Of a stretch of 55,628 nucleotides of DNA, positions 3,026 to 35,257 are shown piece by piece. Origin of the DNA: Verrucomicrobiota bacterium (GTDB lineage Bacteria; Verrucomicrobiota; Verrucomicrobiia; Opitutales; Opitutaceae); the NCBI GenBank assembly GCA_016235555.1, contig JACRKC010000119.1, positions 1-55,628 of the forward strand, in the 5' to 3' direction. A program made the translations under genes and the position numbers. The first letter of the stretch is position 1, and the number at the start of each line of letters is the position of its first letter. Below the pieces are notes generated by a model. It made no database searches, was not told the origin of the DNA, and saw only the letters and a list, made by a program, of their open reading frames with translations.

Positions 3026-3454
3026 ATGAAAACGTTTCGCGCCAAGAAGGAGACAGTGCAGCCCAAGTGGCATCTGATCGATGCCGACGGTGTTGTCCTC
3101 GGTCGCCTCGCCGTCAAAGCCGCCAATATCATCCGCGGCCGCCACCGCCCCACTTACACCCCCAGCGTCGACACCGGTGATTTCGTCGTGGTCATCAATG
3201 CCGAGAAGGTCGTCCTCACCGGCAAGAAGGAAGACCAGAACGAGTATATGTTCTTCTCCGGCTTCGTCGGCGGCGAGAGCTACCGCAGCCTCAAGCTGAT
3301 GCGCGAGAAGAACCCCGAGTTCATCATCAAGCACGCGGTCAAAGGCATGCTGCCGAAGAACATCATCGCGGCCAAGATGCTGACCAAGCTCCGCGTGTTC
3401 AAAGGCCCGGCGCACAAGCACGAGGCCAACAATCCCGTCAAAATCGCCGTCTGA
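3026..3454 (+). CDS. rplM: 50S ribosomal protein L13
   Basis: A 142-residue protein with the full L13 pattern: [16 protein letters not shown] near the N-terminus, [18 protein letters not shown] in the middle, then MLPKN and the L13-type [15 protein letters not shown]-terminus. L13 binds 23S rRNA early in large-subunit assembly. The ATG at 3026 gives MKTFRAKKE, the normal L13 beginning; an earlier in-frame TTG at 3011 would add five residues without homology. It is followed 26 bases later by rpsI, the classic conserved bacterial gene pair. No Shine-Dalgarno sequence precedes the start (ccccttttcccATG). Confidence 0.98.
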
Positions 3455-7686: not shown

Positions 7687-7737
7687 GTAGCAGGTCGGGC
7701 TTTACGCCCGACACGTCGGGGATAAACCCCGACCTAC
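7687..7737. repeat. palindromic repeat, family 6
   Basis: A palindrome running gtagcaggtcgggctttac to gataaaccccgacctac lies between hss and the decarboxylase. The same element, with a further mini-hairpin inside it, occurs at 35093-35159. It would form a hairpin in the intercistronic RNA of the polyamine operon. Confidence 0.85.
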
Positions 7738-20579: not shown

Positions 20580-20690
20580 GGGCGCATCTCAGTTGCTTGC
20601 AGTCCGGAGAGAGCGAAGGAGCGGCGGTTTTCAACCGCCGGGCTTGGGCGCTTGGAAAAGCGCCCCTCCGCAGTGCAAAAAAGTGAGCAG
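20580..20690. repeat. palindromic repeat, family 3
   Basis: Outer arms gggcgcatctcagttgcttg (20580) and gcaaaaaagtgagcagcccc (around 20674) enclose the hairpins gcggcggttttcaaccgccg and gggcgcttggaaaagcgccc. The same arrangement recurs at 23852-23963 and, with a different centre, at 32465-32558. Confidence 0.8.
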
Positions 20691-20707
20691 CCCCCCCGCC
20701 GTTCGCT

Positions 20708-23787: not shown

Positions 23788-23851
23788 GTCCGCTGATAGG
23801 CCAGCCCGGCCGGGCTTGGCAATCTCCGGCTCAGGCGGGGCGGGCGGCGGA

Positions 23852-23963
23852 CGCATCTCAGTTTCTTGTGGTCCGATGAGCGCGACGGAGCGGCGGTGTT
23901 CAACCGCCGAGCTTGGGCGCTTGGAAAAGCACCCTTCCGCAGCGCAAGAAGGCGAGATGCGCC
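23852..23963. repeat. palindromic repeat, family 3
   Basis: Outer arms gcatctcagtttcttg (from 23853) and caagaaggcgagatgc (to 23960) enclose cggcggtgttcaaccgccg and an imperfect hairpin ggcgcttggaaaagcaccc. It is the second copy of the element at 20580 in the same orientation. Confidence 0.85.
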
Positions 23964-23976
23964 CGCCTGCGGTTCG

Positions 23977-24094
23977 AGGTGGAGCGCGTTGACCTCAACG
24001 CGCTTTTGGTGGGAGGGGCTTTACGCCCCGACGAGTCGCGGGGTAAACCCGCTCCCACCTTCAAACCAGCGCGCTGGGTTCAACGCGCTCACCT
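23977..24094. repeat. nested palindrome: family 5 core inside family 4 arms
   Basis: This is nearly the same composite as 6001-6120: outer aggtggagcgcgttgacctc and caacgcgctcacct around an inner element from gtgggaggggctttacgccc to gggtaaacccgctcccacct. With the family 3 repeat it fills the 325-base gap between the LysM gene and carB; I see no gene there. Confidence 0.9.
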
Positions 24095-32464: not shown

Positions 32465-32558
32465 GGGCGCAGCTCACTTTTCTGCAATCGACGAGGCGGG
32501 ACGCCTCGTCCACGTGGCTGAGGCGTCCCGCCTCAGTCAGAAAAGTGAGATGCGCCCC
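32465..32558. repeat. palindromic repeat, family 3 arms with a different core
   Basis: Outer arms gggcgcagctcacttttctg (32465) and cagaaaagtgagatgcgccc (to 32557) are near-perfect reverse complements. The centre contains gaggcgggacgcctc and gaggcgtcccgcctc, which differ entirely from the core of the other family 3 copies at 20580 and 23852. The element starts on the base after the rsmE stop. Confidence 0.9.
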
Positions 32559-35008: not shown

Positions 35009-35060
35009 GGTCTGTCTTCAGACTCATGAAACCGTGCTCCGGAAAATTGTGAGCGGGGCT

Positions 35061-35202
35061 TTATACCAACGGCTGTTGAAATCTGTATGGTCGTAGGTCG
35101 GGCTTTACGCCCGACACGTGTCCGCCTCCGGCGGATGTCGGGGATAAACCCCGACCTACCCACGGAACCCCATAGTCCATTCTTCAGCAGCCGTCGGTAT
35201 TA
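35061..35202. repeat. three-level nested palindrome
   Basis: Outer arms ttataccaacggctgttgaa (35061) and ttcagcagccgtcggtatta (to 35202) enclose the family 6 palindrome gtaggtcgggctttacgccc to aaaccccgacctac (35093-35159). That in turn holds an extra mini-hairpin tccgcctccggcgga (about 35120-35134), which is absent from the family 6 copy at 7687-7737. Three independent palindromes are therefore stacked inside one another. Confidence 0.85.
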
Positions 35203-35231
35203 TGCCCTGACCGAGGACGTGTGCCGTAACC

Positions 35232-35257
35232 CGTCGGGGCGTAACGCCCCTCCCACA
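35232..35257. repeat. half of a family 5 palindrome
   Basis: The text cgtcggggcgtaacgcccct then cccac is the reverse complement of the left part of the inner element at 6034 and 24010. Only this half is present, ending just before the symporter stop codon at 35274. Confidence 0.75.

Follow-up and report, generated by a model that had tools for sequence, protein, structure and literature searches.

Four levels of nested palindromic repeats, with a REPIN at the core of a MITE, in a Verrucomicrobiota genome

Layout of the nest at 35049-35256

The window, the whole 55,628-nucleotide stretch of DNA that was analysed, carries a nest of palindromic repeats at 35049-35256. An initial annotation had described three palindromes stacked inside one another at 35061-35202; all three were found where it had placed them, and its span begins and ends exactly with the two copies of a TTA duplication. 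The nest was confirmed but proved to comprise four levels rather than three, the fourth being a host REP pair at 35049-35256 that had gone unnoticed. From the outside in, the segment 35061-35202 consists of a TTA duplication, an TACCAACGGCTGTTGA end, a REPIN, the reverse end and the second TTA duplication. The left (35061..35063) and right (35200..35202) copies of the duplication were recognized by comparing 3-bp flanks across 44 copies of the element. Between them lies a 136-bp MITE of the type referred to here as frame A (35064..35199, + strand), in which inverted ends of sequence TACCAACGGCTGYTGA surround the REPIN. Its left terminal inverted repeat (35064..35081, +) has no mismatches and its right one (35182..35199, -) has one, the outer arms thus being imperfect inverted ends.

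The REPIN itself, which is the inner palindrome and the annotation's family 6, occupies 35093..35159 (+) and is built of two REPs in inverted orientation with hairpin stems and a GTAG-type tag, in the order GTAG-REP hairpin, spacer and REP hairpin-CTAC. The first hairpin, GTCGGGCTTTACGCCCGAC, lies at 35097..35115 (+) and the second, GTCGGGGATAAACCCCGAC, at 35137..35155 (-), with a mini-hairpin, TCCGCCTCCGGCGGA, in the spacer between them (35121..35135, +). The inner arms, 35093-35116 and 35136-35159, are 88% complementary. A solo REPIN of the same family is present at 7690..7737 (+), where it has neither an outer frame nor the mini-hairpin; its flanks contain no inverted repeat (score 11, versus 30 for the copy at 35093).

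At the outermost level stands a REP of the family GTGGGAGGGGCTTTACGCCCCGAC whose loop is interrupted by the MITE. The left part of this host REP (GTGAGCGGGGCTTTA) was read from the sequence at 35049..35063 (+), and the right part (TGCCCTGAC; 35203..35211, +) was delimited from the reconstructed empty site. Joining the MITE flanks without the duplication yields GTGAGCGGGGCTTTATGCCCTGAC, a decayed copy of the host REP, and the partner REP of the host pair, with one mismatch to GTGGGAGGGGCTTTACGCCCCGAC, follows at 35233..35256 (-). The MITE can be placed in the loop of another repeat because its joined flanks form a decayed REP that has this inverted partner. An unsplit member of the host family occurs in the window at 24009..24032 (+), and the family has 164 sites in the genome at three or fewer mismatches, as against none in the reversed control. 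REP loops in the window were observed to begin with TTTA, one of them being the loop that the MITE insertion splits.

As a single strand, the element has a predicted folding energy of -38.1 kcal/mol, compared with -20.04 ± 2.73 kcal/mol in 200 shuffles, none of which was as stable. The outer inverted repeat taken alone is unremarkable, an equal score being reached at 2 of 2000 random positions in the window. That the nest has an outer palindrome is nevertheless certain, because the element has copies across the genome and these have TNA duplications.

The outer element and its target sites

The 136-bp outer element is a DNA transposon of the non-autonomous kind: it has inverted ends of the TACCAACGGCTG type, dispersed copies and a 3-bp target duplication (TTA in the window copy). 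A copy search of the genome, an 8.03-Mb draft in 140 contigs, returned 192 candidates, the best 40 of which were scored; the 39 scored places besides the window copy were 82-94% identical. When the 40 copies were aligned, the ends were constant and the flanks mostly unrelated. A set of 44 distinct two-ended copies was then used, comprising the better-preserved ones topped up from the list of end motifs, with copies found in both orientations merged (74 rows to 44). These copies are 117-138 bp long, have inverted ends and are too short for a transposase gene. Their 3-bp flanks are identical in 29 of 44 cases, every one of them TNA (TGA, TAA, TCA or TTA), and TNA stands on both sides in 37 of 44; identity of 4-bp flanks was seen in none of the 44. 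The 15 copies without an exact 3-bp duplication may have decayed. Two subfamilies were distinguished, A (TACCAACGG) and B (TACCAATGG), together with hybrids of the two such as L102.

The reconstructed empty sites have a weak palindromic preference, with G at positions -5 and -4 and C at +4 and +5 around TNA. Another MITE family's end directly abuts 16 of the 44 copies, compared with 142 of 12226 control TNA sites, the motif list for this count having been picked after the flanks had been viewed. The initial annotation had suggested a mechanism that targets hairpin loops. For the outer element this was not borne out: the empty sites reconstructed for 29 copies resemble hairpins no more than control TNA sites do, with a mean stem of 3.10 as against 2.89 at 3150 control TNA sites and 3.19 at 396 local TNA sites, and a stem of at least 6 occurs at 1 of the 29, compared with 5.9% of control and 11.4% of local TNA sites. 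The target of the outer element is TNA, with no general rule of hairpin loops.

Three readings of the outer element compete with a MITE that inserts at TNA, and each has some evidence in its favor. Loop targeting draws on the fact that the window copy and two others (L049 and L053) have inserted at one and the same TTA, in the loop (CTTTACG) of REPs of the GTGGGAG family. By our estimate roughly 0.03 such insertions would be expected with all TNA sites equal, or about 0.3 under the assumption that just a tenth of the genome tolerates insertion. The REP loop, however, happens to satisfy the GG..TNA..CC preference of the MITE sites, the copies that abut another MITE end do so rather than lying in a loop, and the empty sites have no excess of hairpins, which makes loop targeting very unlikely. 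The whole 136 bp could also be one extended REPIN moved by a RAYT, with the TNA flanks belonging to its ends, and in the copies read from the source genome the ends and core do travel jointly. Against this, the left and right TNA agree within each of the 29 matched copies, in four versions, which indicates target duplication, and we know of no target duplication in REPIN/RAYT movement as described. The inner unit alone, moreover, flanks RAYT genes and occurs in relatives. We regard the extended REPIN as highly improbable, and slightly more so than loop targeting. Hardly credible, and the least probable of the three, is an immobile structured RNA or terminator that is merely repeated. The predicted fold is strong, and an RNA-hairpin role has been proposed for many REPs (PMC3733652), but the matched target duplications, the unrelated flanks and the insertion into or against other repeats all speak for mobility. 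A secondary role of the element as RNA is possible.

The search for an autonomous partner covered two DDE-related families in the element's own genome, with ends sought within about 1.5 kb. Four matches to DDE_Tnp_1 (PF01609) and one to DUF4096 (PF13340) were obtained, none with TACCAA ends plus TNA. By eye, 100 listed of 104 end matches, about half of which are expected by chance (control 52), contained no pairs at IS length beyond the ends of complete MITEs. The autonomous parent may be lost or may lie in an assembly gap. MITEs that lack a surviving parent are common, an autonomous parent being usual and not required.

Several individual copies have unusual structures. The REPIN of L092 is reversed and lacks the mini-hairpin. 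At L068/L104, two left-end-like stretches about 190 bp apart enclose inverted-repeat sequence, as a nested insertion or a partial duplication would leave. Unusual right flanks (AAGGTAAGGCTTTCACTCCCGCCAG) are common to L069, L071 and L060, and the first two, in addition, lack the left end and have a second flank, on the left, in common; these three copies may be part of a larger repeat. A repeated stretch like TCACTCAAT.ATGCGAGCCTCAGT adjoins several MITE copies and the second frame described below, frame F (L067, L093, L038, L044 and L126).

The inner REPIN, its RAYT genes and its outer frames

The inner unit is a REPIN, that is, a GTAG-tagged REP pair that has solo copies and whose REPs also accompany RAYT genes. 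The inner REP was found at 196 genome sites at two or fewer mismatches, with 1 in the control. A transposase of the RAYT type had been proposed as something to look for, and the genome was found to have ten Y1_Tnp matches. Two of the genes (L013 and L018) have exactly the inner REP on both sides, and the host REP family (GTGGGAGGGGCTTTACGCCCCGAC) flanks the RAYT gene of L014. These three REP-flanked Y1 proteins were scanned with the NCBIfam model REP_Tyr_transpos (cut-off 80), which L013 and L014 pass with scores of 81.2 and 96.5 and which L018 approaches to within 0.9 bits (79.1). The nearest relatives of the L013 RAYT in the species collection come from an Opitutus MAG (L211; 72% identity) and a Verrucomicrobia MAG (L212; 65%), and they too have inner-type REPs on both sides. 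The window therefore probably comes from an Opitutus-like verrucomicrobium. We infer from these associations that the REPIN is moved by a RAYT. The involvement of mobile elements, as the initial annotation had it, is upheld by the TNA duplications, the dozens of copies and the RAYT genes.

Matches to the nest were also obtained in 7 of 56 other genomes, with at most 15 candidates scored per genome; among the matches listed, essentially the REPIN was covered and never both outer arms. The mini-hairpin had been read as an extra palindrome inserted into this copy. Its absence from the copy at 7690-7737 was confirmed, but it proved to belong to the REPIN spacer and occurs in 25 of the 44 MITE copies (16 have another spacer and 3 neither). 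It is regarded as a spacer variant and not as a copy-specific insertion because it also occurs in the REPIN of L135 in G031, a genome of another genus than the window's, where neither known frame lies within 60 bases on each side.

The frequency of nesting was estimated in a sample of 455,628 bases, made up of the window and twenty 20-kb pieces picked blind to repeats. REPINs of all families numbered 33 in this sample and 1 in the reversed sequence. Of the 33, 11 are enclosed by a larger inverted repeat that scores beyond the 99th percentile for shuffled flanks, compared with 5.2% of swapped flank pairs, a control that includes same-frame pairs and therefore overstates the background. Roughly one REPIN in three among those detected in the genome sample thus lies at the heart of a larger palindrome.

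The initial annotation had taken the nest as a sign that palindromic units insert at the centre of other palindromes. The combining of units holds, with multiple frames and multiple cores; a rule of loop insertion by the outer element does not, as judged from the 29 empty sites. Nor are the units tied to one fixed combination, since the inner unit occurs solo and in three outer frames, and one frame holds two inner units. Two of these frames are in the source genome, namely A/B and frame F (AAGTTGAAGTGTAGCCGCGACCG...), the latter with the REPIN in both orientations. Frame F was found at 15 sites (control 0): nine numbered L192-L200, and a further six, L029, L031, L033, L038, L039 and L045. A window-type REPIN is present at all 15, ten times one way and five times the other with differing junctions, and the core is decayed or interrupted at some sites (L039, L192 and L194). 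Additional copies of frame F, which have diverged more, occur at L044 and L126.

The third frame, GGTAGTGG.CAGTTTG, surrounds the window's type of REPIN in three genomes of sister genera (G024, G023 and G001). An 8-bp duplication is perfect in 7 of 30 script-paired loci of this frame, and 7 of 8 positions match in 5 more. The 30 loci include frames with other cores, and at least 6 mispaired ones (L157, L160, L161, L166, L180 and L191; lengths 66 or 146-177) were kept in the denominator. By their target duplications, at least two outer frames, A/B and this 8-bp frame, are transposons. In G001 the frame encloses the window-type REPIN at L171 and an unrelated REPIN (GTAGGTGGCGTG.../GTTGCGCG...CTAC) at six loci (L181, L183, L184, L186, L187 and L188). 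In G023, L169 is a REPIN without this frame, and L170 shows none. An 80-bp copy of the frame in G024 (L172) has a core collapsed to a single REP.

Exchange of cores was also seen by eye in other frames of the source genome, where a CGCATCTCACTTTC-ended frame has at least three different cores and a CTCAAACTGAGG-ended frame at least two. Window copies of the CGCATCTCACTTTC-ended frame with differing cores lie at about 32465-32555 (-), 20582-20700 and 23851-23962. At 2793-2947 of the window, several GTAGCGGCGGTC hairpins are enclosed by a frame with unlike ends, CAGGAAGTG and CTCAAACTGAGG, which seems to have arisen by recombination between two copies.

No REPIN-free frame was found among the frame-A ends and frame F sites examined. 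With a loose motif and loci that were read, 82 of 83 distinct frame-A ends at two or fewer mismatches lead within 75 bases into REP-like sequence, although these include at least one chance match, L101, which lies in coding-like sequence. The sole exception is the interrupted copy L068/L104. Ten extra hits at three mismatches (L201-L210) showed no frame.

Assembly of the nest and relation to known systems

The feature is very probably a two-transposase nest, a MITE with a REPIN core that is copied as one unit. Cutting and joining of its outer inverted ends would be the work of a transposase whose insertions duplicate TNA targets of 3 bp, probably an IS5-type (IS1031-like) DDE enzyme acting in trans. 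The central cargo is a REPIN, a hairpin type thought to be spread by RAYT Y1 transposases via single-stranded DNA. REPIN and frame were probably united before the copies spread, and the composite has since multiplied as a whole, in the window by entering the loop of a different REP; with other frames and REPINs of this bacterial family, such unions have probably occurred repeatedly. Short palindromic mobile elements seem to be assembled from exchangeable outer and inner modules. For the joining step, rare RAYT insertions between transposon ends may have been carried along afterwards, or RAYTs may have a preference for palindromes.

Taken further, such a preference would make the nesting the RAYT's own choice of target, with REPINs dropped preferentially into the hairpin tips of MITEs and other palindromes. 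Several REPIN families lie near the centre of unrelated frames, the two orientations and differing junctions in frame F are what separate insertions would yield, and binding of RAYTs to single-stranded REP hairpins has been described (PMC8266576). A central position of the REPIN would be expected anyway, however, if just those insertions that fall between the ends are carried along. Moreover, when the window's REPIN family was sampled with a solo query, 21 of the 30 copies retrieved were in no recognised frame, so that most chose none, and a larger inverted repeat surrounds 3 of the 30, compared with 6.6% of swapped pairs. The latter score is weakened by the 9 of 30 that do sit in frames (F 7, A/B 2), the outer-repeat test missing frames with short arms. 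A candidate REPIN-free target was also lacking among the 15 frame F sites, and all but one of the frame-A ends led to REP-like sequence by the loose motif. We consider preferential targeting by the RAYT improbable, yet a more serious contender than any of the three alternatives for the outer element. Somewhat less probable again is that REPINs are obligate cores of several unrelated frames, the core being needed in cis and RAYTs swapping cores. The core hairpin might then, for instance, bring the ends together or protect them, in frames with TNA, 8-bp and perhaps other duplications across Opitutus-like Verrucomicrobia. If this were true, two unrelated transposases would be tied together in a common cycle of propagation.

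As a rule, REPs and MITEs are treated as distinct kinds of repeat in bacteria. The REPIN-cored MITE is one of several pairings of frame and core in this bacterial family, and counts of REPs in genomes of this kind partly reflect how far another transposon, and not the RAYT, has spread. Whether hairpin cores aid MITE movement and whether RAYTs choose palindromes as targets can now be tested. Among the titles and abstract openings listed from the mainly open-access literature on REPINs, RAYTs and MITEs, none describes MITEs that have target duplications and a REPIN core.

The inner unit resembles the REPIN/RAYT system of Bertels and Rainey (2011, PMC3116915) in its inverted REP doublet, its folding spacer, its high copy number and the RAYT gene beside matching REPs, and its GTAG tag is as described in PMC3733652. 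Unlike in the account of that system, the REPIN is here also carried in MITEs with other ends and a target duplication (PMC3116915). REP dimers within long palindromes were reported from A. variabilis (GTAG-15) and H. neapolitanus (CGTC-1) by Di Nocera et al. (2013, PMC3733652), where, as here, palindromes without a REP were not found either. The passages of that paper on these cases call the palindromes targets and give no target duplication or frame exchange, whereas here the TNA and 8-bp duplications mark the outer palindromes as transposon ends, and there are several combinations of frame and core. The same source describes O. terrae as highly enriched in GTAG repeats.

The 3-bp TNA duplication of the outer element is like that of the IS1031 group of the IS5 family and its MITEs, a group for which a TNA preference is stated (PMC12016507). 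The likeness is one of duplication only, the ends here beginning with TACC and no matching transposase occurring among the DDE_Tnp_1 and DUF4096 matches. The element works like an IS5/IS1031 member and is not filed as one, because those matches include no transposase of the group that has such ends. IS elements, including IS5-family members, are known to insert into REPs (Tobes and Pareja 2006, PMC1525189); compared with the REP-targeting IS described there, 3 of 44 copies lie in a REP loop and the element is not REP-specific. Assignment of the outer element to IS200/IS605, which uses a Y1 transposase and inserts without target duplication, is ruled out by the duplications. TIRYTs, described as Y1 transposase genes in long inverted repeats (PMC3733652), are similar in that repeated inverted-repeat families occur by Y1 genes; unlike them, the A/B and 8-bp frames have target duplications, and the frames enclose a REPIN and not a Y1 gene. 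For a Marinomonas RAYT, dependence on certain positions of the TTTA loop in its REP has been described (PMC8266576).

The ten Y1_Tnp loci of the source genome (L009-L018) differ in their surroundings. L009 encodes an IS200 transposase and is flanked by other hairpins, and no flanking hairpin type was seen at L010 and L012. Several of the loci have a distinct hairpin type on both sides, as if each had kept its own REP, for example GGACGCC in L016, GGCGGGGTT in L015, GGGTCGGGAG in L017 and GTCGGGC in both L013 and L018.
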